From Cephaloticoccus sp. (GTDB taxonomy: Bacteria; Verrucomicrobiota; Verrucomicrobiia; Opitutales; Opitutaceae): a stretch of DNA of 64,000 bases. A program made the translations under genes and the position numbers. Location: positions 1-64,000 of the forward strand of contig JAURHD010000016.1 in the NCBI GenBank assembly GCA_030833445.1, in the 5' to 3' direction. Below, piece after piece: positions 24,026 to 37,012 of the stretch. The stretch's first letter is position 1; every line of letters starts with the position of its first letter. The notes below the pieces were generated by a model. The model was not told where the DNA came from, ran no database searches, and saw only the letters and a list, made by a program, of their open reading frames with translations.

Positions 24026-24856
24026 ATGCCCACCCCTCCTCCCTACGAACTCACCCCGGCCCAGCAGGAAGCCTATCATCGCGACGGCTATTTGCTGGGT
24101 TTGCCCCCGATCTACTCACAGGAGGAAATGACGCGGATCAATGCGGAGCTGCCCCACCTGCTCACCTTGTTGCGCGAAGGCGAGACCACCAATGAGATGC
24201 GCGAGTGGCATCACGAGAGCACTTACCTGTATGAGATAGTGATGAACCCACGGATCCTCGATCTTGTTGAGGGTATCCTCGGGCCCAATTTCTACGTGTG
24301 GGGCAGCCATTTCTTCATTAAACCGCCGCACAGCAAGGGCACGGTGCCTTGGCACCAGGACGCCTATTACTGGCCGCTGTCACCCTGCAACACGGTCACG
24401 GTCTGGATCGCGTTCGACGACGTCGACGAGCAGAACGGCGGCATGAAGCTCATCCCGGGTTCCCATCTCGGCGGACTGATCAAGCACCGCCAGAAAGACG
24501 ACGCGAACGCCACGCTTTCGCTCGGCCTCGAAGATGGCACCGATTTCAAAACCGATGGCGCCGTGCAGTTCCGGCTCAAGGCCGGCGAAATCTCCATGCA
24601 TGATGATCGCGCCATCCATGGTTCGCAGGCCAACCCTTCCGGTCGACGACGCGCCGGACTTACCATCCGCTATTCCGGCACCAACGTGAAACCCGACCTC
24701 AAGGTGAGTCCCGATTTTGTAGCCCATCTGTGCCGCGGCACCGATACCTACGGTCACACGCCCTATGCCCCGGCGCCCACGGCACGCTACGGCCGCAAGG
24801 ACTACCGCCGGAGCGAGGCACCGGCCGACGGCTACGAACTCAATCCTACCCGTTGA
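24026..24856 (+). CDS. PhyH-family dioxygenase, first of a tandem pair
   Basis: 276 residues. Fe(II)/2-oxoglutarate oxygenase with His110-x-Asp112 (VPWHQDAYYW), distal His198 (DDRAIHGSQANPSG) and Arg207-209 for the co-substrate. The fold-typical VWIAFDDVDEQNGGMKLIPG segment is present. It is very similar along its length to the next gene, with identical residue spacing, so the two arose by tandem duplication. Controlled probably by the divergent AraC gene. Substrate unknown. Confidence 0.9.
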   Translation: MPTPPPYELTPAQQEAYHRDGYLLGLPPIYSQEEMTRINAELPHLLTLLREGETTNEMREWHHESTYLYEIVMNPRILDLVEGILGPNFYVWGSHFFIKPPHSKGTVPWHQDAYYWPLSPCNTVTVWIAFDDVDEQNGGMKLIPGSHLGGLIKHRQKDDANATLSLGLEDGTDFKTDGAVQFRLKAGEISMHDDRAIHGSQANPSGRRRAGLTIRYSGTNVKPDLKVSPDFVAHLCRGTDTYGHTPYAPAPTARYGRKDYRRSEAPADGYELNPTR

Positions 24857-24913: not shown

Positions 24914-25729
24914 ATGAGCAACGAAACCTCCCACCGCCTCACCGCGGATCAAAAGAAATTCTATCACGAGAACGGCTACCTGCTGGGTCTTCCCGCCATC
25001 TTCACCAAGGAAGAAATGGAGAAGATCAATGCCGAGCTGCCCAACCTGCTCGCGCTGCTCAAGCCCGGCGAGTCCACCAAGGACATCCGCGAGTGGCACG
25101 AGACCAGCACCTACCTTAACGATATCTGCAAAAACCCGAAAATTCTCGATCTCGTAGAGAGCATCCTCGGGCCCAACTTCTACTACTGGGCGAGCAACTT
25201 CTTCATAAAGGAACCGCACAGCCTATCCACCGTCGGCTGGCACCAGGATTCATATTACTGGCCGATGGCGCCCAACAATTCCGTCACGGTCTGGCTGGCC
25301 TTCGATGACGTCGACGAGGAAAACGGCGCCATGAAACTCATTCCCGGTTCACACCTCGGTGGCATCATCAAGCACCGCAAATCGGAAGTCACCGATTCCG
25401 TGCTCACGCTTGAACTCGCCGACGGTTCTGACTTCAGCGCCGACAGCGCCGTGCAATTCAAACTCAAGGCCGGCGAGTGCTCCCTACACGATGACCGTGC
25501 CATTCACGGCTCGCAGGCCAATCCTTCCGGCCGCCGCCGCGCCGGTCTCACCATCCGCTACTCGGGCACCAACGTGAAGAATGACCTTTCGGTGAACCCG
25601 AACTTCAAGGCCTACCTCTGCCGCGGCGTGGATGAATTCAACTACAACCCTCCCGGCGTCGAACCCACCCAGCGCTACGGCCGGCCAAACTTCAAGCCCG
25701 TCAGCAACGAGGAGGCTGGGAAAGGGTGA
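24914..25729 (+). CDS. PhyH-family dioxygenase, second of a tandem pair
   Basis: 271 residues, paralogue of the preceding gene with the same metal triad, His110-x-Asp112 (VGWHQDSYYW) and His198. Differences cluster in the substrate-facing middle region after KHRK/KHRQ and at the C-terminus, which may mean a different or modified substrate. The 57-bp gap has no terminator, so one transcript is likely. A CACGGAG hairpin follows the stop. Confidence 0.9.
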   Translation: MSNETSHRLTADQKKFYHENGYLLGLPAIFTKEEMEKINAELPNLLALLKPGESTKDIREWHETSTYLNDICKNPKILDLVESILGPNFYYWASNFFIKEPHSLSTVGWHQDSYYWPMAPNNSVTVWLAFDDVDEENGAMKLIPGSHLGGIIKHRKSEVTDSVLTLELADGSDFSADSAVQFKLKAGECSLHDDRAIHGSQANPSGRRRAGLTIRYSGTNVKNDLSVNPNFKAYLCRGVDEFNYNPPGVEPTQRYGRPNFKPVSNEEAGKG

Positions 25730-26480: not shown

Positions 26481-26588
26481 GGGAAAAAGGAAACAGTGCG
26501 GCTTTCGCCCTGAAAACAAATCCTTAATTGCCGCCGGATATCCAAATCGCGGTTGCGCCACGCCCGAGCCCGCCTAGGTTCGCCCTTC

Positions 26589-29471
26589 ATGGCATCGCAA
26601 CGCGACCTTCTCGCCCCGCTCGACACTTTTGAACGCCGGCACACCGGTTCACCCGCCGCCGATACGGCGGCCATGCTGCAGCTCACCGGCTTCGCCTCGC
26701 TTGACGCCCTCACCGATGCCGCCGTGCCCGCCAGCATCCGCCTGCCCAACGAATTGAATCTGCCGGCCGCCGCCGGTGAATCGGCCGCCCTGGCCGAGTT
26801 GCGCGCCATCGCCAATCAGAATCAGGTTTTCCGCAGCTTCATTGGCATGGGTTACTACGACACCGCCGTTCCCGGAGTCATCCAACGAAACATCCTCGAA
26901 AACCCCGGCTGGTATACGGCCTACACGCCCTACCAATCCGAAATCTCCCAAGGCCGCCTCGAAGCCCTGCTTAATTTCCAAACCGTCGTCACCGATCTGA
27001 CCGGTCTTGAAATCGCCAACGCCTCGATGCTCGACGAGGGCACGGCTGCAGCTGAGGCCATGATGATGTGCCATCGCATCAAGATCGGGGCCCGGGCTGA
27101 AACCAGCACGTTCTTCGTTTCCGAGAAATGCCATCCGCAGACGATCGACATCGTCAAGACCCGCGCCCAGCCACTCGGCGTTGAAGTCGTGGTCGGCGAC
27201 CACCAAACTTTCGACTTCGCCGGTAAAGTCTTCGGCGTGCTCGTGCAATATCCTGACACGACCGGCAGCATTCAGGACTTCACGGAGTTCTTTGCGAAAG
27301 CCCACGCCGCCGGCGCGCTGGCCGTCGTGGCGACCGACCTGCTCGCGCTCACCCTGCTGCGCGCTCCCGGTGAGTTTGGCGCCGATGTCGCCGTCGGCTC
27401 CGCCCAACGCTTCGGTGTGCCCATGGGTTTCGGCGGACCACACGCCGGTTTCCTCGCCACCAAGGATGCCCACAAACGCCAGATGCCCGGTCGCCTCGTC
27501 GGCGTCTCCAAGGACGCACAGGGCAATCCGGCCATGCGCCTCGCCCTCGGCACGCGTGAACAACACATCCGCCGCGACAAGGCCACGTCGAACATCTGCA
27601 CGGCGCAAGTGCTGCTCGGCGTGATGGCGTCGATGTATGCGGTCTATCATGGACCTGCTGGGCTCAAGCGCATCGCGCAGCGTGTGCGCCTGCTCACGCA
27701 ACTGTTGGCCACAGGACTCAAACAACTTGGCGCTTCGATCAACGCCGACCCGGTCTTCGATACGCTCACCATCGGCAACGTCGCCGCAGATCGCGTGCAC
27801 GCCGCCGCCGCCGCCCAACGTATCAATGTCCGGCGGATCGACACCTACAACGTGGGCATCTCGCTCGACGAAACGGCTTCGCTCAAGGACGTGGCCACTC
27901 TGCTCAGTTTCTTCGGCGATGCGAAATTGCCGGAAGTGGATGACATGGTCATTGATTACCCTTCTCCGATCGGCCGCTCTTCCGCGTTTCTGGCGCACAG
28001 TGTGTTCAACCGTTACCACACCGAGCACGAAATGCTCCGCTACATTAAACGGCTCGAAGCGAAGGATCTTTCGCTCTGCCATTCGATGATCTCCCTCGGT
28101 TCGTGTACGATGAAACTCAACGCCACGAGCGAGATGTTTCCCGTGTCGTGGGCGGAGTTCGGCAAACTGCATCCCTATGCCCCGGTCGAGCAGACCCGCG
28201 GGTATCAAAAGCTCTTTGCCGATCTGGAAACGTGGCTCGCCGAAATCACCGGCTTTGCCGCCGTGTCGTTGCAACCCAATGCCGGCTCCCAAGGCGAATA
28301 CGCCGGGCTGCTCGTCATCAGCGCCTACCACCAGTCGCGCGGCGATGGCCACCGCAACATCTGCTTGATCCCCACCAGCGCCCACGGCACCAATCCCGCC
28401 AGCGCCGCGATGTGCGGCCTGCAGGTCGTGCCCGTCGCCTGTGATGACAACGGCAACATCGACGTCGCCGATCTCAAGGCCAAGGCCACGCAACACGCCG
28501 CCAATCTCGCCGCGCTCATGGTCACCTATCCCTCGACCCACGGCGTGTTCGAAACCTCGATCAAGGAGATCTGCGCCACAATTCACGAGCATGGTGGCCA
28601 AGTTTACATGGACGGCGCCAACATGAACGCGCAGGTCGGCCTCACCTCACCCGGTTTCATCGGCGCGGATGTGTGCCACCTCAATCTGCACAAGACCTTT
28701 TGCATTCCTCACGGTGGCGGCGGACCCGGCATGGGCCCGATCGGCGTGGTGAAACACCTCGCGCCTTACCTGCCCAGTCATGCGGTTTCCGCTCCCTCCA
28801 TCGCCAAGGCCGACACCGCCATCGGTGCGGTCAGCGCCGCGCCTTACGGTTCGGCTTCGATACTCGTCATATCGTGGATGTATATTCGCATGATGGGACC
28901 GGATGGACTGAAACGCGCCACCCAGTTTGCGATTCTCAACGCGAACTACATCGCCAAGCGGTTGGCACAGCATTTCCCCGTGCTCTATCAAGGCGCACAA
29001 GGCTTGGTGGCGCATGAATGCATCCTCGAATTCCGCCCGTGGAAACAGCACGGCATCGAGGTCGAGGACGTCGCCAAGCGATTGATCGACTACGGTTACC
29101 ATGCCCCGACGATGTCCTTCCCCGTGCCCGGCACGCTGATGATCGAGCCGACCGAGAGTGAAACCAAGAGCGAGCTCGACCGTTTCTGCGATGTGCTCAT
29201 CTCGATTCACGGGGAGATGGCTGCCGTGGCCAGCGGTGAAAGCGACAAGGCCAACAACCCACTCAAACACGCACCCCATACCGCGGCGGTGGTAGCCGCG
29301 ACCGAGTGGGACCACCCCTACTCCCGCGAAACCGCGGTTTTCCCCGACAAACACACTCGCGCCGCCAAGTTCTGGCCGGCCGTCGGCCGCGTCGACAATG
29401 TTTACGGTGACCGCAACCTCGTGTGCTCGTGTGTCGGGATGGAGGCCTACGCGGAAAGCACGCAGGCCTGA
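26589..29471 (+). CDS. gcvP: Glycine dehydrogenase (decarboxylating), P-protein
   Basis: 960 residues, the full length of the fused alpha/beta P-protein. It decarboxylates glycine with PLP and passes the aminomethyl group to lipoyl GcvH. The early [14 protein letters not shown], the [27 protein letters not shown] block and the PLP lysine in [16 protein letters not shown] are clear. The ATG at 26589 is preferred over 26553 because [20 protein letters not shown] matches the family start. gcvT and gcvH are not beside it. The methylene-THF made by the glycine system would join the nearby C1 operon. Confidence 0.96.
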
Positions 29472-29472
29472 A

Positions 29473-29931
29473 TTACGCAGTGGGATTCAGGGCGAAGTGG
29501 ATCGTCTGCAGCACGGATGACCACTTGTGATCGCGGCTGGGCATCGCGCATAGACAACCCGCGGAATACGTCTTCGGTCGCCAGCTCATGACTGCCTCGA
29601 GCGGTTGCCCGAGCAGCGGTTTCTCGTCATTGGCGATCTGCAGAATGCGGCCGCTCGTGTGCATGTAACTGCACATACGTTCATGACCATCGGTGCCGGG
29701 AAGGGGTGCGCACTCCATGGTGCGAATAGGACGGCCCTCACCCACTGATCCAAGCGAAACCCGGTAAACCATGGTCAAAGGAATGCCACTGCAGGTCGCA
29801 CCCTCGAACTCGAGGCTCGCATCCACTCCGCCATCCGCCTGCGGGGTCAAGGTGAGGCAACCGTCGCGCCAGCGTTCCAAGGCACTCGGAGTCATCGTAT
29901 AACCGGGAACAGATGGCGTGGTCGGATTCAT
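29473..29931 (-). CDS. Hypothetical protein, 152 residues
   Basis: I do not recognise a family. The protein has no signal peptide or membrane segment, and is predicted beta-rich (DGCLTLTPQADGGVDASLEFEG, MVYRVSLGSVGEG). It has five cysteines, including ATCSG, MCSYMH and GCLCAM. Codon use matches the neighbours, and it ends 1 bp from the convergent gcvP, so it is probably a real gene. The function cannot be inferred. Confidence 0.6.
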   Translation of the reverse strand: MNPTTPSVPGYTMTPSALERWRDGCLTLTPQADGGVDASLEFEGATCSGIPLTMVYRVSLGSVGEGRPIRTMECAPLPGTDGHERMCSYMHTSGRILQIANDEKPLLGQPLEAVMSWRPKTYSAGCLCAMPSRDHKWSSVLQTIHFALNPTA

Positions 29932-30028: not shown

Positions 30029-30901
30029 TCAGGAAAACAGGATCGTCTTGTTGCCCTGCACGATCACGCGGTCTTCGAGATGGTAGCGCAACCCACGCGA
30101 CAACACGGCATTCTCCACGTCCTTGCCCAGCCGCATCATGTCCTTGATCGAATCACTGTGACGGATCCGCGTTACGTCCTGTTCGATAATCGGACCCGCG
30201 TCCAACTCCTCGGTGACGTAGTGACAGGTCGCGCCGATGAGCTTTACGCCGCGTTCCTCGGCCTGATGGTAGGGTTTGCCGCCGATGAAGGACGGCAGGA
30301 AACTGTGATGAATGTTGATCACGCGGTGACGGTAGCGTTCGCACAACCACGGCGGGAAGATCTGCATGTAGCGCGCGAGCACGATGGTGTCGGGCTCGGC
30401 CGCGCCAATGAGATCGGCCGTCTTTTCCAGCGCGGCCTGTTTGCCCGCGGCATCCTTCGGCACGGGCACATGGTGGTAAGGAATGCCATACCACTCGACC
30501 AGCGAACGCAGATCGTCGTGATTGGAAATCACGCACGGGACATCGAACTCCAAGTCGCCGACCTTGCGACGGTGCAGGAGGTAGGCGAGGCAGTGGTCGA
30601 ACTTGCTGACGAGCAGGACAACGCGTTGGCGGCGCTCGGCATCGACCAACCGCCAATCCAACTTGAGCGACTCGGCCAGGGACTTGAACTCGGCTTCCAA
30701 TTTTTCACGAACACCGGAACCGCCCTCCACCAGGAACTCCGAGCGCATGAAAAACATGGCGCTGCGGGGATCGTTATACTGGGCGGCATCCGTGATCGAA
30801 GCGCCGCGATCGGCCAGGAAGGTCGCCACGCGGGCAACAATCCCGGTCCGGTCGGGACAGGATGCGATCAACCGCAGACGGGCAGGTTCCGGAGCACTCA
30901 T
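30029..30901 (-). CDS. purU: Formyltetrahydrofolate deformylase
   Basis: 290 residues. Hydrolyses 10-formyl-THF to formate and THF. N-terminal ACT domain (about 8-85, LIASCPDRTGIVARVATFLADRG) for regulation, then the formyltransferase-fold catalytic domain with the signature NIHHSFLPSFIGGKPYHQA and the Asp in TEELDAGPIIEQ. Its ATG overlaps the stop of the upstream O-demethylase (ATGA), so translation is coupled and it very likely serves the same C1 pathway, releasing THF and formate. Confidence 0.95.
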   Translation of the reverse strand: MSAPEPARLRLIASCPDRTGIVARVATFLADRGASITDAAQYNDPRSAMFFMRSEFLVEGGSGVREKLEAEFKSLAESLKLDWRLVDAERRQRVVLLVSKFDHCLAYLLHRRKVGDLEFDVPCVISNHDDLRSLVEWYGIPYHHVPVPKDAAGKQAALEKTADLIGAAEPDTIVLARYMQIFPPWLCERYRHRVINIHHSFLPSFIGGKPYHQAEERGVKLIGATCHYVTEELDAGPIIEQDVTRIRHSDSIKDMMRLGKDVENAVLSRGLRYHLEDRVIVQGNKTILFS

Positions 30902-32247
30902 GATTCGTTGAGCCGGTTGTAGGAAACCGTGGCACGAACTTCGGTTTGCACGTGGCGTTCGACCACGGGACGGTTCGAGCCGCCGTTTTCCTCACCCCAG
31001 ACGAGTTTCACCTCGGTGCCTTCAGCCACATCTTCATCGAGCATGGCGAGCGAGAACCAACCCTTCACGTTGACGGTATAAACGGTATAGGTGGAGAGAC
31101 CGACGAGCTTGCCGTTGATCTGCACCTTGTCGAAGGGCAGAATCGCGTAGTAGGCATTCGGCATTTCCATGTATTTGTAGCGTTCGCCATCGCCGAGCTG
31201 GCTGGCGAAGATCTTCAGGGAGTCTTCCTTGTTCCAGCGCAGCCAGACCTTGCGGCGGTGCGGCTGCGGCTCGAGTTTCTCGAGGGCCTCGCGACCGATG
31301 AAGTCATGGTCAAACTTGACGTGGCGGCCGTAACCGAGATCCCAAGGGGTCTGGTAGTAGTCCTCGATGTTGTTTGAGCTGAAGCTGCCGCCAATGGAGG
31401 CGTTGGCCTCAAAGCCGTTGTCCGGCAACCATTCGCGGTAAGCCTTGAGCTTCTCGGTCCAGATCGCAGGCATAGGGGAAGGGATCCAACCGCTCTCGGG
31501 CGAGACGGTCGAGTAGGAGCGCGCCCCACCTTGCACCAAACCGAATTGCTTGCCGGCCTTGAGGATGGCCGCGCGCACGGTTTCACCATCCGCCGCCGGA
31601 CCGTGCAGTTCGAGACCACCCATGCGGGACATGTTGTGATTGAGGGCGCGGACCTTGCAGCCGGCGATCTTGAGATCGCCCATGTTGAAGAACTTGATCT
31701 CAGGGAACTCGCCTTCGTGCACCGCCTTGATGAGGTCGAGCGCGTTCGGGCCCTGAATCTGGAAACGATAGAGCAGACGGCCCGTCGGGTTGGAGACCGA
31801 GCGTTCGTCACGCGTGACCTTCACGTCGTAGTTGCCGACGATGGCATTGTATTCCACCCAGTTTGGGACGGAGGGGCGGCCAACGATGCTGACCTTGTTC
31901 TCGGAGTGGCCGAAGAGAATCGCGTCACCGATGACGTGGCCTTCGTGGTTACAGGTCACGATCTGCTTCGCCTTGTTGGGCCCGAAGTTCTTGAAGGTGT
32001 TCACCGCGACATCGGAGAGCAGACGCATCACGTCCGGACCTTCGAAGTAGGTGTCCTTCATGTGGAAGGACTGGTCGAAGAGGACGACGGTGTTTTGCCA
32101 GGCGGCCTGCTCATCGCGCCAATTGGAATATTCGGGCTTGTCGGGAAACTGATAGCCGCCGGTGGGGGCGTTGCGCAGCAACACAACGGCATTGCCGCCG
32201 TATTGCTGGAACTTGGCTTCGAGACTGGAGGGTTTTGCTGTGCTCAT
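30898..32247 (-). CDS. LigM-type tetrahydrofolate-dependent O-demethylase (GcvT family)
   Basis: 449 residues. It aligns by eye over its length with LigM of Sphingobium (vanillate/3-O-methylgallate O-demethylase): NWRDEQAAWQNTVVLFDQ, GPNKAKQIV, HVIGDAILF, FQIQGPNALDLI, LKAYREWLPDNGFEA, NNIEDYYQTPWDLGYG and VKFDHDFIGREALE are all family blocks. LigM moves a methyl group from a methoxy-aromatic to THF, giving 5-methyl-THF. Neighbours MetF and PurU would oxidise that methyl and recover THF. Whether the substrate here is an aromatic or a methylated sugar/osmolyte is unknown. Confidence 0.82.
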   Translation of the reverse strand: MSTAKPSSLEAKFQQYGGNAVVLLRNAPTGGYQFPDKPEYSNWRDEQAAWQNTVVLFDQSFHMKDTYFEGPDVMRLLSDVAVNTFKNFGPNKAKQIVTCNHEGHVIGDAILFGHSENKVSIVGRPSVPNWVEYNAIVGNYDVKVTRDERSVSNPTGRLLYRFQIQGPNALDLIKAVHEGEFPEIKFFNMGDLKIAGCKVRALNHNMSRMGGLELHGPAADGETVRAAILKAGKQFGLVQGGARSYSTVSPESGWIPSPMPAIWTEKLKAYREWLPDNGFEANASIGGSFSSNNIEDYYQTPWDLGYGRHVKFDHDFIGREALEKLEPQPHRRKVWLRWNKEDSLKIFASQLGDGERYKYMEMPNAYYAILPFDKVQINGKLVGLSTYTVYTVNVKGWFSLAMLDEDVAEGTEVKLVWGEENGGSNRPVVERHVQTEVRATVSYNRLNES

Positions 32248-32351
32248 AATATGGTGGGTTATTTTCTATCGGTTATTGGCTATTTGTTAAGGACGGATGT
32301 GCGGATCGGTTTGTGTAGATTGGAAAGTAGGGACGGACCGCCCTACCAAGA

Positions 32352-33920
32352 TTAAGGCGGCGAAAGGGTCTTCGGAGATTGGGGTGACTGTTGCTTGGTC
32401 AGATGGTCGCGACCGAGCCAAGTGTTGGCCCAGCTGGAGGTGCCGCGCAAAGTCTGGTCCTGCATCACCGGGGTGTGGGCGAGCAGTTCCTCGGCGCGGC
32501 CTTCGTATTTCAAGCGGTCATAGGCGCGTGACCAGATACACTCAAAGTCATCCACCTCACACAAGCCGTCGCGCGTGCCACCGCAGGGACCGTTGCGCTG
32601 GTTTTTGGCGCAGGATGATTCGGGACAGAGAAAGGCAATCTCGGGCAGCGAGCAATCGCCGCAATCCTTGCAACCGAACATCACGCTCTTGCTCGCATGC
32701 TCGATGGCCCGCATCCAGCCAGGACCCTGCATCGGATCATTGGCACTGCCGCAGAGTTTGGCGCCAAGTTTCGCGATGCCCTTGCCCGGCGTGAACATCA
32801 GATCATGGGTGAATTTCGAAAAACGATACGAGTAGGTGATGTTGCGTGCATTGGGCAACTCCGGCTCGGTCGGCCGCGAAACATCGGCCAATCCGGTTGC
32901 CTCATCTTGGGCGTAGACAAAATACTCGCCGGGTCGCGAGTAGCGGATTTCGCGGGCAAACTGCTTCCAGTCGTCGGCGCTAAAGCTGCGCTCAATCTCG
33001 AGCACTTGGTCAATCTCGGCCACAGTGTGCACGCCGCCAAGATAGGCGCCGCGGTAGCCGAGGCCCCGGTAAATCGCGATCTGCTTGGCCGCGAGTTCGT
33101 GGAAGAATGCTTTGCCCTTATCGTGGCTGGATCCCTGCTGCTCGCAGATTTCGGCGAGCTCGTCGGAAATCACGACGCCGGGAATGCGTTGCGACTTGAA
33201 GACCCGTGCCACCCCGGGGGTGAGCGCATACACATTGCCGATCAGCGGCACGTTGCCGTGCCCGCGCTGCTGCATCCACCCGAGCAACTCGTGGATCTTG
33301 CGCGAATCATAGCCGATCTGGTTAATGAGAAACCGCGCCCCGGCCGCGATCTTGCGCTCCATCTTCAGGAGCTGCGGCACGATCTCATTTTCATGGAGTT
33401 TGAAATTGGTGACAACCGCACCGGGAAAGAACTTGGTCGGATCAAGCCGCGCCTGCTTCTTGGCCGAAGCACGCGTCACATCGAGCCCCGCGTTCATCTG
33501 CCCGAGCAGAGTCAGCAATCCAATTGAATCGATATCAAAAACCGGCTTCGCCCCGCCACCGATGCCACTGCCGGAGTAGTCGCCGCTCAGCACAAGCAGA
33601 TTGTGGAACCCTTCGCTGGCCAAATGCCATGCTTCGCTTTCGAGGCCGTTGCGGTTGAAATCCTTGCATGAGAGGTGAATCACGACCTCCCGACCGGCAT
33701 CCAGAAACGGACCGCCCAAAGCCGGTGCCGCCAACATAGGATTGCCCCCGGCATTGTCGGTGATCGATACCCAGTCGATCGGGGCATAACGCGCGAGTTC
33801 TTGGGAAAACCCCAAGGTCTTGGATGCCCGGGTTTCCAACACGGTGCCGCGGGTCGATACCAGTTCGACCCCGAGCATAAACTCGGAGGACGCGACAAAT
33901 TTATCCGGCAAGGTGGACAT
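32352..33920 (-). CDS. metF: Methylenetetrahydrofolate reductase fused to a MetV-like cysteine-rich domain
   Basis: 522 residues, well above the roughly 300 of plain MetF. Residues 1-400 form the TIM-barrel MetF (FMLGVELVSTRGT, DWVSITDNAGGNP, NLLVLSGDYSG). The rest is the MTHFR C-terminal domain with a dense Cys cluster: MFGCKDCGDCSLPE, FLCPESSCAKNQRNGPCGG and FECIWSRAYDRLK. Such a domain is MetV in acetogens and probably carries metal clusters for electron transfer. Adjacent LigM-type and purU genes suggest MetF here oxidises 5-methyl-THF. The gap to the demethylase gene is 104 bp and holds a GTAGGG/CCCTAC hairpin. Confidence 0.88.
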   Translation of the reverse strand: MSTLPDKFVASSEFMLGVELVSTRGTVLETRASKTLGFSQELARYAPIDWVSITDNAGGNPMLAAPALGGPFLDAGREVVIHLSCKDFNRNGLESEAWHLASEGFHNLLVLSGDYSGSGIGGGAKPVFDIDSIGLLTLLGQMNAGLDVTRASAKKQARLDPTKFFPGAVVTNFKLHENEIVPQLLKMERKIAAGARFLINQIGYDSRKIHELLGWMQQRGHGNVPLIGNVYALTPGVARVFKSQRIPGVVISDELAEICEQQGSSHDKGKAFFHELAAKQIAIYRGLGYRGAYLGGVHTVAEIDQVLEIERSFSADDWKQFAREIRYSRPGEYFVYAQDEATGLADVSRPTEPELPNARNITYSYRFSKFTHDLMFTPGKGIAKLGAKLCGSANDPMQGPGWMRAIEHASKSVMFGCKDCGDCSLPEIAFLCPESSCAKNQRNGPCGGTRDGLCEVDDFECIWSRAYDRLKYEGRAEELLAHTPVMQDQTLRGTSSWANTWLGRDHLTKQQSPQSPKTLSPP

Positions 33921-34135
33921 GGTAAGGAAAGGGAACCTCAGACTACGGGGTAGCCGGAAAGGGACACTCCGACCAGACTCCGCGCGGAGTCATGCAGCAC
34001 GGGAGTGGACGATATGGGGAGACGGAGCAGCACAAATTACAGGGGTTGGGCAATCGGGTGCCAATATTACGCGAGTTAACATTGCACGTCTTGGTGCTTT
34101 GGGCTTGGCTCTATTTGCAAATCGGGCACTCACTC

Positions 34136-35002
34136 ATGAAAAACCCAGTTTCACGTCCCATTGCGGTCACTTTGCCGGCTTACGGTCTCGCTTTTGCAGA
34201 GAGCGTGCACGGGCCGCGTTTTCATATGGGTGAGCGGACAGACCCCTTTCACAAAATCATCTACGTGTTGCAGGGCCGGGTGCAGTTTACCGAGAGCGAC
34301 CACGGCAAACCCATACAAGCCACGGCCGGATCCGCTTTCTGCGTCAATGCGGGTATTCGGCACAAAGTCACCGACTCGGAGCCACCCACCCTCCTGCTAC
34401 TGTGCTTCACCCGTGAATTTCTGTCACGGGATGCCGAACTGGAACGCCTCTGGACGAAGTTAACCGGCACGCGCGCGGCCGGGGTGCGGCCGGACGGAGC
34501 CTGGGGTTCCCGCTTCGAAACCCTATGGCGGGCCGGAATCGTCGAGCAAACCGGCACCCAGCCGGGTCGCGAAGTCGCCTTGCGGGCTGCCGCGGAAAAC
34601 ATCCTCGTCGCGCTGGCCCGACTGCCGGTCGATGCGCCGGACGATCTGGCGGGCCGCCGGGTGGCCAACGTGGCCCGTGAACTCGCCGGGACCTTTTACG
34701 AACCTTGGAGCTTGGAGCGCGCCTGCACTCGCGCGGGGATGTCCCGCCGGCATTTCAGCAAACTCTTCCGCAGCCAGATCGGTTGCTCCTTTTTGGAACA
34801 CCTCACCGAGCTGCGTCTGAACCATGCCGCCAAACTACTGAAGGAGAATCATCACTCGATCATCGGCGCGGCCTTCTCCAGTGGTTACGGCGACCTGTCG
34901 CATTTCTACCGGTTGTTTCGCGCCCGTTTCGGCCAGCCACCCCGGGCTTGGTTGGAAAAAAGACACGGCACGGACTTGCCCTCCAAGAACGGAGGCGGCT
35001 AG
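34136..35002 (+). CDS. AraC-family regulator with cupin sensor
   Basis: 288 residues from ATG 34136; an upstream in-frame region (from 33992) has no family match and is left out. The N-terminal cupin (about 20-110, FHMGERTDPFHKIIYVLQG) binds a ligand. The C-terminal HTH pair is WSLERACTRAGMSRRHFSKLFRSQ and HSIIGAAFSSGYGDLSHFYRLFRARFGQPPRAW. It is divergent from metF across 215 bp and 14 bp ahead of the FAH-family gene, so it may control both the C1 operon and the hydrolase. Confidence 0.87.
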   Translation: MKNPVSRPIAVTLPAYGLAFAESVHGPRFHMGERTDPFHKIIYVLQGRVQFTESDHGKPIQATAGSAFCVNAGIRHKVTDSEPPTLLLLCFTREFLSRDAELERLWTKLTGTRAAGVRPDGAWGSRFETLWRAGIVEQTGTQPGREVALRAAAENILVALARLPVDAPDDLAGRRVANVARELAGTFYEPWSLERACTRAGMSRRHFSKLFRSQIGCSFLEHLTELRLNHAAKLLKENHHSIIGAAFSSGYGDLSHFYRLFRARFGQPPRAWLEKRHGTDLPSKNGGG

Positions 35003-35016
35003 CTGGAATTCGTCTC

Positions 35017-35820
35017 ATGAAAATCATCCGTCACCTCTCCCCTACTGGACCAGCCTACGCCGCCTTGCAGCCCGATGGCTCCGCCCGCGTCATCACTGGC
35101 GACATCTACGGCGAATATAAAGTCGCTGACGAAGTTATCCAACCCGGCAAGCGCCTCGCTCCGATCGTGCCGACCCAGATTCTCTGCATCGGCCTGAACT
35201 ACCGCCAGCATGCGGCGGAGAGTAACGCCAAAGTGCCGGAACGCCCCATCCTTTTCGTCAAGGGCATCAACACGCTGCAAAACCCCGGAGACCCGATTGA
35301 GATTCCGACCAAGCTCGCCAGCCACGAGGTCGACTACGAATGCGAACTCGCCGTCGTCATCGGCAAGGCCTGCAAAAACGTCAGCCGCGAGGATGCGCTG
35401 AACTACGTGCTCGGCTACACTTGTGCGAACGATGTTTCAGCCCGCGATCACCAGATCAAGCTCGGCGGCGGCCAATGGTGCCGGGGCAAGTTCTTCGACA
35501 CTTTCGCCCCGCTCGGTCCGGTGCTCGTCACGACGGACGACATCCCCAATCCCAACACTTTGAAGATCGCCACGATCCTCAACGGCAAGCGCGTGCAGGA
35601 TTGGACCACGAGCGACATGATCTTCGACGTGCCCGCCATCATTTCCTATCTGAGCGGAAGCACGACCCTCGTGCCCGGCACCGTCATTCTGACCGGCACT
35701 CCGCAAGGCGTGGGCATGGCGGCCAAGCCTAATCCGGTTTGGCTCAAGGCCGGTGACAGCGTCAGCATCGAAATCGAAAAGATCGGCACGCTGACCAATC
35801 CGGTGGTCGACGAAGTCTGA
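35017..35820 (+). CDS. Fumarylacetoacetate hydrolase (FAH) family protein
   Basis: 267 residues from ATG 35017. FAH-fold C-C bond hydrolase or lyase. Metal ligands are in EVDYECELAVVIGK (Glu-x-Glu) and the later Asp in CANDVSARDHQ; the family block KFFDTFAPLGPVLV and the end TGTPQGVG are present. Family members split acylpyruvates from aromatic degradation or 2,4-diketo-3-deoxy sugar acids from fucose and rhamnose oxidation. Both fit this window. It is 14 bp after the AraC gene and is followed by a terminator. Confidence 0.87.
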   Translation: MKIIRHLSPTGPAYAALQPDGSARVITGDIYGEYKVADEVIQPGKRLAPIVPTQILCIGLNYRQHAAESNAKVPERPILFVKGINTLQNPGDPIEIPTKLASHEVDYECELAVVIGKACKNVSREDALNYVLGYTCANDVSARDHQIKLGGGQWCRGKFFDTFAPLGPVLVTTDDIPNPNTLKIATILNGKRVQDWTTSDMIFDVPAIISYLSGSTTLVPGTVILTGTPQGVGMAAKPNPVWLKAGDSVSIEIEKIGTLTNPVVDEV

Positions 35821-35862
35821 GCGGATTTAAGCGCAAAGGCGCGAAGTCGCAAAGTAATGTAG

Positions 35863-35887
35863 GGCGGGATCGCTGATCCCGCCTTTT
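35863..35887 (+). terminator. Intrinsic terminator after the FAH gene
   Basis: Perfect stem GGCGGGATC (35863-35871) and GATCCCGCC (35875-35883) with loop GCT, followed by TTTT. It is nearly identical to the hairpin after the GntR regulator (14977-14998), so a repeated element is serving as terminator. Confidence 0.65.
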
Positions 35888-35890
35888 ATC

Positions 35891-35963
35891 TTTAACGCAG
35901 AGGTCACAGAGAACACAGAGTAGAAAATTCAAAACTCCGCGATCTCCGTGCTCTCTGTGTTAA
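35891..35963. repeat. CACAGAG-type inverted repeat
   Basis: TTAACGCAGAGGTCACAGAG... and its inverse ...CTCCGTGCTCTCTGTGTTAA enclose a short AT-rich centre (GTAGAAAATTCAAAACTCC). This is the third member of the CACGGAG-like noncoding family in the window and lies between the FAH terminator and the cupin gene. Confidence 0.5.
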
Positions 35964-36055
35964 AATTCCCGTTGATCAACTTTGTGTCTCCGCACCTCAG
36001 CGTGAGACAAAAATCTGCTTCGCGTCCGGACGGATTTCGGCCGTAATTCAACCTC

Positions 36056-37012
36056 ATGCAACACGTGCATCTCGATAGCGTGCCCTGGATGGAATGGTCC
36101 TCGACCACCGGCAAGTTTCACGGCGCCGGTAAACAGGTCTCCGAGGTGCTCGGCGCCAACCTCAACGCCAACCTCGTGGACGGCGGGCATCCCTTCGATT
36201 TGGAATACGGCAAACTCCTGCCCGGCAAGGCGGGCTGCCCGTTTCACAGTCACTCCGCCCAATGGGAATGTTACTACATTGTCAGCGGCACCGGCACGAT
36301 GCGCTACGGCGATCAACGCCGCCAACTCCGTGCCGGCGACAACGATCTGCTTTACTATTTGGTGGCGGACAATCCCACCAGCGAGTTCTGGCACTACCCT
36401 GATTCCGACAAATACGGCTTCAAACCCGGCGGGGTGATCTTCCGTAAAACGGACGCGCACTACGATCTCGGCGAGGACGATCCTCCCGGCGAACCCTTGG
36501 TGAGCGAACCGCGCAAGGCTTTACCCGAGATGCACGCGCAGTTCATCAACGTGGCCGAAATCAAGGAAGATCACCGGCACTCACCCAAAAATAAATTCAG
36601 CTCTCACTGCCGCGATATTTCCCTGACCTTGGGCGGTAAGCGAAATGCTGACGTCGCCCATGGCGGCCACCCATTCGATCTGCAGATTCGTCGCATCACC
36701 GCCGGCGCCGCCATCTGTCCGTATCACAGTCACAGCGCACAGTGGGAGCTGCTGGTCTTTCTCTCCGGCCACGGCAGCGTGCGCACCCCCGATGGAATCA
36801 AGGAAGTGGGACCAGGCGACATCGTGCTGCATCCGCCCGGCACCCCGCACCAAACCCGGGCCTCCGCTGAGAGTGCCCTTGAATGTCTCATCATCACGGA
36901 CAACCCGCTGGAAGACGTCTGTTACTATCCCGACAGCGACAGGTGGGGTATCCTGTCCGCCCGGAAATACTTTCGTATTACTGCACTCGACTACTTCGAC
37001 GGCGAAGAGTGA
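36056..37012 (+). CDS. Bicupin protein
   Basis: 318 residues with two cupin domains made by internal duplication. The repeats are plain in the metal motifs GCPFHSHSAQWECYYIVSG and ICPYHSHSAQWELLVFLSG, and in the preceding DGGHPFDLE and HGGHPFDLQ. Each domain ends with a conserved YYPDSDRWG-like block (HYPDSDKYG in the first). Bicupins act as dioxygenases, isomerases or storage proteins. The His pattern suggests a metal site in both halves. It follows the FAH gene, but the reaction cannot be named. Confidence 0.82.
   Translation: MQHVHLDSVPWMEWSSTTGKFHGAGKQVSEVLGANLNANLVDGGHPFDLEYGKLLPGKAGCPFHSHSAQWECYYIVSGTGTMRYGDQRRQLRAGDNDLLYYLVADNPTSEFWHYPDSDKYGFKPGGVIFRKTDAHYDLGEDDPPGEPLVSEPRKALPEMHAQFINVAEIKEDHRHSPKNKFSSHCRDISLTLGGKRNADVAHGGHPFDLQIRRITAGAAICPYHSHSAQWELLVFLSGHGSVRTPDGIKEVGPGDIVLHPPGTPHQTRASAESALECLIITDNPLEDVCYYPDSDRWGILSARKYFRITALDYFDGEE

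Follow-up and report, generated by a model that had tools for sequence, protein, structure and literature searches.

The window analysed here, a 64,000-nucleotide (nt) stretch of a Cephaloticoccus sp. contig (JAURHD010000016.1), carries a compact set of three minus-strand genes encoding, in the order in which they are read, a MetF-MetV fusion, a LigM/DesA-type demethylase (ligM hereafter) and PurU, a 10-formyl-tetrahydrofolate (10-formyl-THF) deformylase (Table 1). An AraC-family regulator gene is divergent from this putative operon. The ligM stop codon and the purU start codon share an ATGA, where the sequence reads GAATCATGAGTGC, and the two genes thus overlap by 4 nt; the metF stop and the ligM start are 104 nt apart. 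The three genes and the ATGA overlap had already been proposed in the initial annotation, and open frames and family models confirm both. The genome to which the window belongs (G000) is 97.75% complete.

Table 1. Features at and around the ligM locus, with positions in the window
Feature	Position	Strand	Basis or remark
purU, 10-formyl-THF deformylase gene	30029-30901	minus	open frame; TIGR00655, PF01842 + PF00551
ligM, LigM/DesA-type demethylase gene	30898-32247	minus	open frame; NCBIfam, 5x1i match, conserved residues, tree
MetF-MetV fusion gene	32352-33920	minus	open frame; PF02219 + PF12225
Divergent intergenic region, putative promoter/operator	33921-34135	none	position alone
AraC-family regulator gene, AraC-type ligand-binding domain	34136-35002	plus	PF12833, PF02311 (scored on frame 33992-35002)
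FAH-family hydrolase and bicupin genes	35017-37012		downstream of AraC gene

The enzymes of the cluster

Against the NCBIfam models, the demethylase scores 573.5 bits for DesA (cut-off 800) and 534.4 bits for LigM (cut-off 580), versus 66 bits for GcvT (cut-off 300) and 41.3 bits for soxA (cut-off 1164). Its top match among solved structures is LigM (5x1i, E value 9.7e-139), the top GcvT being 1woo (E value 1.1e-11). In a tree of 113 rows built by a quick method, the 109 rows of the LigM/DesA family are separated from four GcvT rows, all of which exceed two GcvT cut-offs. Eighteen verrucomicrobial LigM rows form a single clade (Shimodaira-Hasegawa-like approximate likelihood ratio test, 100), which is adjoined by the rows from the Opitutaceae locus L053 and the Lentisphaeria locus L052 and contains none of the nine long branches that were flagged. 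Where LigM has its catalytic tyrosine (Tyr245 in the window protein), 19/19 verrucomicrobial and 89/90 other family rows have Tyr, and 4/4 GcvT rows have Arg. The enzyme had been called LigM-type at the outset, and no grouping with GcvT or sarcosine-type enzymes was seen; such an identity is ruled out by the model scores, the structure matches, the tree and the Tyr found where GcvT has Arg.

Besides Tyr245, the window demethylase keeps His62 and Arg124, the three residues being Y247, H60 and R122, respectively, in LigM numbering. Arg124 is present in all 19 verrucomicrobial rows and in 68/90 of the other family rows. Together with Tyr32, Phe186, Phe187, Tyr245 and Trp254, a set of presumed pocket residues, it is kept in 19/19 verrucomicrobial rows and in 9/9 LigM-type rows picked by hand from the tree. 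Phe61 is found in 18/19 verrucomicrobial and 18/90 other rows, the LigM-type rows having His there (9/9). By its sequence, the protein is classed as a member of the LigM/DesA family with a subfamily of its own, neither LigM nor DesA proper by the curated cut-offs. Methyl transfer in LigM is reported to proceed via a tyrosine (PMC9296663). No other LigM/DesA-type gene was found in the genome, in which the one further match is a true GcvT (contig C33, 443.1 bits, cut-off 300).

In the fusion protein, the N-terminal MetF domain is weakly matched (PF02219, 30.9 bits, cut-off 24) and the C end clearly so (PF12225, 85.4 bits, cut-off 23). The latter bears CxxCGxC, RNGPCGG and further Cys residues, invariant in six sequences, in agreement with the added Cys-rich domain that had been proposed. 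Structure prediction from a six-sequence input gave a best mean pLDDT (predicted local distance difference test) of 62.1 (range over five models, 42.6-62.1); values fall below 50 at residues 354-522 and in some loops, and the MetV domain is not resolved. The model matches methylenetetrahydrofolate reductase (MTHFR) structures, e.g., 1v93 (E value 7.9e-11, TM-score 0.82 by target), and searches of solved structures with the fusion matched either the MetF part or nothing, giving no match for the MetV part. The MetF fold, the Cys-rich domain and NGPCGG place the protein, as far as sequence tells, among MetVF-type MTHFRs, and it is probably a methyl-THF dehydrogenase. A study of a two-subunit MetVF enzyme (PMC8515935) names NGPCGG as the motif by which the MTHFR C-terminal part in MetV is recognized, describes MetV as the iron-sulfur electron-transfer part, and reports that the enzyme does not use NAD(P)H. 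The operon gene is an extra metF copy, since a canonical MetF is encoded elsewhere in the genome (contig C70, 300.6 bits). In the relatives G023 (L119:5193-10781), G006 and G029 (see also L120 and L121), formate-THF ligase is adjoined by a further MetF-MetV fusion with 46-48% identity to that of the operon, which suggests that methyl-THF may be handled by the fused enzyme in other pathways as well; the G023 locus also has an AraC gene and a gene for a pterin-binding protein, and possibly belongs to a corrinoid-linked methyl pathway.

PurU exceeds the TIGR00655 cut-off (343.7 bits versus 285.95) and has an ACT domain (PF01842) and a formyl transferase domain (PF00551). Asn196, His198 and Asp234, presumably its functional triad, are invariant in 11 PurU sequences.

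Recurrence of the gene set

For the locus survey, genome contigs were scanned and the best 80 of at least 600 pattern matches were taken, of which 79 loci were kept. Fifteen of these are from Verrucomicrobiota or Lentisphaerota; two were already in the set, and the window and six relatives bring the total to 20 distinct loci. A purU gene adjoins ligM (within 3 kb) in 13 of the 20, and, with start codons read from the frames, the two overlap at 12 of the 13 junctions and abut at the remaining one. Within the same distance, an AraC gene lies on the opposite strand in 16/20 loci, GcvP in 5/20 and a broken formate-THF ligase gene in 1/20. MetF-type genes, assigned by reading frames, adjoin ligM in 18 of the 20 loci; a tblastn tally had given 14 only, because its queries missed fusions in the reverse order. 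Within 3 kb of the other 64 ligM genes, MetF is found in 18 loci, PurU in 15, both in 13 and FolD in six, such that in this best-match sample ligM is paired with purU or metF more often in Verrucomicrobiota than outside it.

The 18 MetF-type genes comprise nine MetF-MetV fusions, four MetV-MetF fusions in the reverse order and five short MetFs. Among the reverse fusions, L045, L046 and L048 are complete, with both domains recognized by Pfam, and L050, cut by the contig end, shows the MetF part only. The short MetFs of L044 and L053 are barely over the PF02219 cut-off, those of L047 and L049, which no Pfam model matches, were assigned to MetF from about 36% similarity to an annotated plasmid MTHFR, and L051, which lay outside the Pfam scan, is counted with them. 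The two loci without a MetF-type neighbour are L041, whose contig begins 41 nt before ligM, and L052, in which none was seen. Vestigial MetV genes precede the short MetF-like genes of L047 (L047:269-760) and L049 (L049:2097-2492), retaining the ends of a MetV-MetF fusion and lacking its middle; judging from these remnants, it looks as though a fusion was replaced inside the operon.

In a PurU tree of 40 rows, the 13 in-operon verrucomicrobial PurUs fall in one clade (100/100), which also includes two PurUs from same-genus genomes lacking ligM, G005 (locus L129) and G007 (L128); the L128 copy adjoins a GFO/IDH/MocA oxidoreductase gene. The PurUs of G001, G006 and G023 are of another type (42-44% identity). 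Taken together, the PurU and ligM trees fit a history, itself an inference, in which ligM and purU were paired long ago and some lineages subsequently lost genes. The demethylases of the six relatives match that of the window at 79-88% identity, and the remaining genome matches are partial, at 20-32% identity.

As the initial annotation had assumed, FolD is encoded elsewhere in the genome. It had also cast PurU as standing in for the LigH of Sphingobium, a claim that fares less evenly. In its favour, formate-THF ligase (PF01268) has no match in G000, and in the relative G002 it lies in two broken pieces directly after purU (L025:11817-13479). The two other ligM genomes with an in-operon PurU are G003, without the ligase at 74% completeness, and G004, in which the ligase is intact; the latter combination makes a strict exchange of PurU for the ligase a weak proposal. 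The ligase is intact in all three ligM genomes without an in-operon PurU (G006, G023 and G029), and over the seven ligM genomes the data only lean towards PurU occurring without the ligase. The domain of B12-dependent methionine synthase (PF02965) was likewise without a match in G000.

The AraC gene probably starts at 34136 instead of 33992, since frames in relatives begin at the matching Met, and its product is a possible regulator of the operon. Among the nine window-like loci, an FAH-family hydrolase gene lies beside the AraC gene in all nine and a bicupin gene in seven. The best NCBIfam match of the FAH protein is 2,4-didehydro-3-deoxy-L-rhamnonate hydrolase, all six listed models being under cut-off, and its best solved-structure match is HpaG (1gtt). 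A 152-codon open reading frame after purU (29473-29931) is probably not a fourth gene of the operon, having neither a Pfam match nor a counterpart in the relatives' loci, of which only four of six extend that far. Further on, gcvP (26553-29471) is convergent with the operon, and is near ligM in several relatives as well. Tandem PhyH-family dioxygenase genes, 65% identical, lie at 24026-24856 and 24914-25729.

Candidate pathway and competing readings

On the basis of the genes observed, with their arrangement, overlap and recurrence, of the enzyme families and of the presence of FolD, the operon probably serves to take the methyl group from a methoxylated aromatic acid and to release it as formate. 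Under the putative control of AraC, the LigM/DesA-type enzyme would transfer the methyl group of a vanillate- or syringate-like acid to THF, and the MetF-MetV fusion, working in the oxidative direction, would convert 5-methyl-THF to methylene-THF. FolD would then carry methylene-THF to 10-formyl-THF, from which PurU, presumably cotranscribed with and translationally coupled to the demethylase, would release formate as the end product and free THF. Methylene-THF would also be open to biosynthesis.

Several observations weigh against this scheme. The survey of gene order that the initial annotation had in mind does find the set in several verrucomicrobial lineages, though ligM itself is patchy, being present in only 7 of 57 genomes (the window's own and 56 relatives). 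No purU adjoins ligM in 7 of the 20 loci, and the relative G029 has ligM and no PurU over cut-off. In G000, no formate dehydrogenase alpha subunit exceeds its cut-off (best 218.2 versus 666.25 bits); a molybdopterin oxidoreductase is present. The demethylase is under both curated equivalog cut-offs, LigM and DesA, as are the three further proteins from Verrucomicrobiota/Lentisphaerota that were scanned (L044, L052 and L053); the LigM cut-off is passed by two plasmid members, and the other eight proteins scanned, including these three, pass neither. The aromatic product is moreover left with no obvious fate, because neither a LigB-type dioxygenase (0/5 genomes) nor an intradiol dioxygenase (0/7 genomes) was matched, in searches that covered these two ring-cleavage families and whose controls each matched 4/14 known genomes.

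These points leave room for other readings. The methyl groups could serve one-carbon supply, LigM and MetF feeding methylene-THF to glycine/serine, thymidylate and purine synthesis and PurU acting as an overflow valve. This is possible, if doubtful: in Sphingobium SYK-6, LigM and S6MTHFR replace a missing glycine cleavage system (PMC12585457), and the loci lacking an adjoining PurU fit such a role, whereas no glycine-cleavage gap is apparent in G000 (gcvP, 1485.7 bits against TIGR00461; gcvT, 443.1 over 300; gcvH and lipoamide dehydrogenase were outside the search), and wherever purU adjoins ligM in the 20 loci the genes overlap or abut. The methyl donor may instead be a methylated sugar or another methylated natural product, the enzyme resembling LigM in fold and chemistry only. 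Its scores under both equivalog cut-offs, Phe61 in place of the His of LigM-type rows, the missing dioxygenase matches and the initial annotation's presumption of a polysaccharide degrader speak for this rather unlikely alternative; however, the six presumed pocket residues are common to the verrucomicrobial and LigM-type rows, Phe61 also occurs in other family rows, and LigM, DesA, Dmt, Dmt50 and Dmt06 are all reported to act on methoxylated aromatic acids (PMC9404685, PMC5547118). Methylated sugars in particular are at most a conceivable substrate.

It is improbable that the FAH hydrolase and the bicupin, forming a cluster with AraC, open and hydrolyse the demethylated ring. They do keep their place beside AraC in the window-like loci, and the FAH family covers HpaG as well as maleyl- and fumarylpyruvate hydrolases, but the best family match is a rhamnonate-type hydrolase under cut-off, no dioxygenase model matches the bicupin significantly (gentisate, E value 0.061), and in the remaining verrucomicrobial operon types, some with short flanks, neither gene was seen as a neighbour of ligM. 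PurU-like and MetF-like genes are common enough (control searches matched 13/14 and 11/14 known genomes, with PurU over cut-off in 8/14) for a chance meeting of unrelated housekeeping genes to be conceivable. That explanation is highly implausible, the gene set recurring with its overlap over verrucomicrobial lineages and in clusters of other phyla, and G000 having separate canonical MetF and GcvT genes; it is rejected by this recurrence and by the ligM-purU overlaps in the 20-locus set.

Demethylation of a methoxylated aromatic acid with release of formate thus remains the preferred reading. A bolder and quite uncertain extension would be cobalamin-free methoxyl scavenging, patchily distributed over Verrucomicrobiota, in which the methyl group is taken and the ring left uncleaved, an acetogen-like MetF-MetV runs backwards with a non-NAD acceptor, and formate is exported as a one-carbon public good.

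Comparison with known systems

The initial annotation suggested a new route for methoxyl groups. Its scheme is sound, but the route is not new, as MetF-FolD-PurU and LigM-MTHFR have been published and ligM-metF-purU sets lie on annotated plasmids; other bacteria are known to carry out this chemistry. Genes for metF, folD-type and purU functions may also accompany the dicamba demethylase of Rhizorhabdus in its cluster, and this would lower the novelty further. Among the literature matches listed, the combinations LigM/PurU/metF, dicamba/metF/purU and O-demethylase/deformylase were not described in titles or abstract beginnings. LigM-type demethylation in Verrucomicrobiota was not found among the matches listed either, subscription journals not being covered; of two papers that mention both, one has community lists and a Rieske-type enzyme named LigM, and the other, by its title, concerns humanized mice. 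What stands out is that MetV is fused to MetF in either order, that ligM and purU overlap recurrently in several verrucomicrobial lineages, and that the demethylation genes come without a match to two main ring-cleaving classes. The operon would extend THF-dependent O-demethylation to Verrucomicrobiota and offers a direct test case for whether MetV domains drive methyl-THF oxidation and whether some bacteria harvest methoxyl groups without ring opening; the formate output, if true, would connect the turnover of lignin-type methoxyl groups with organisms that use formate.

In Sphingobium SYK-6, the gene order is ligM-metF-ligH. That system and the present one share the demethylase family and an MTHFR for methyl-THF oxidation, and differ in the PurU of the operon and the lack of a formate-THF ligase match in the genome here, in the fusion of MetF to a MetV domain and in a demethylase under both equivalog cut-offs. 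SYK-6 has no glycine cleavage system (PMC12585457), whereas gcvP and gcvT are present here. In Sphingobium, LigM works with S6MTHFR, which oxidizes methyl-THF, and similar gene sets are said to be present in many bacteria (PMC12585457). In Methylobacterium CM4, growth on chloromethane requires metF and purU, with a FolD/PurU oxidation branch in a CmuAB-MetF2-FolD-PurU route (PMC3621897). That route and the one proposed for the operon have in common the oxidation of methyl-THF to formate by PurU and a MetF of divergent sequence; methyl groups enter via corrinoid proteins there and would enter via a LigM-type enzyme here.

Agrobacterium Atu1420/Atu1418 provide a further precedent (PMC7797058). 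Among 11 plasmid stretches compared, one of them unannotated (L036), ligM, metF and purU are adjacent in three annotated ones and not in the other seven. The three are Rhodococcus opacus pRop44186_a (ligM-metF-purU-folD, followed by class III extradiol dioxygenase genes), R. opacus pR1CP1 (metF-ligM-purU) and Agrobacterium pAt (ligM-metF-purU), whose LigM exceeds the LigM cut-off. The adjacency of the three enzymes is thus shared with the window, and aromatic ring-cleavage genes are annotated near the plasmid loci L032 and L033. The plasmid PurUs show 41-49% identity, and the plasmid metF genes encode proteins of 286-299 amino acids, the one scanned (L032) having no PF12225 match, whereas MetF is fused to MetV here. 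The acetogen MetVF-type MTHFRs likewise combine MetF with an iron-sulfur MetV part bearing NGPCGG. In acetogens the two are distinct subunits, the metV gene preceding metF (PMC8515935), whereas in the window they form one polypeptide, with MetV C-terminal, encoded in a putative demethylation operon.

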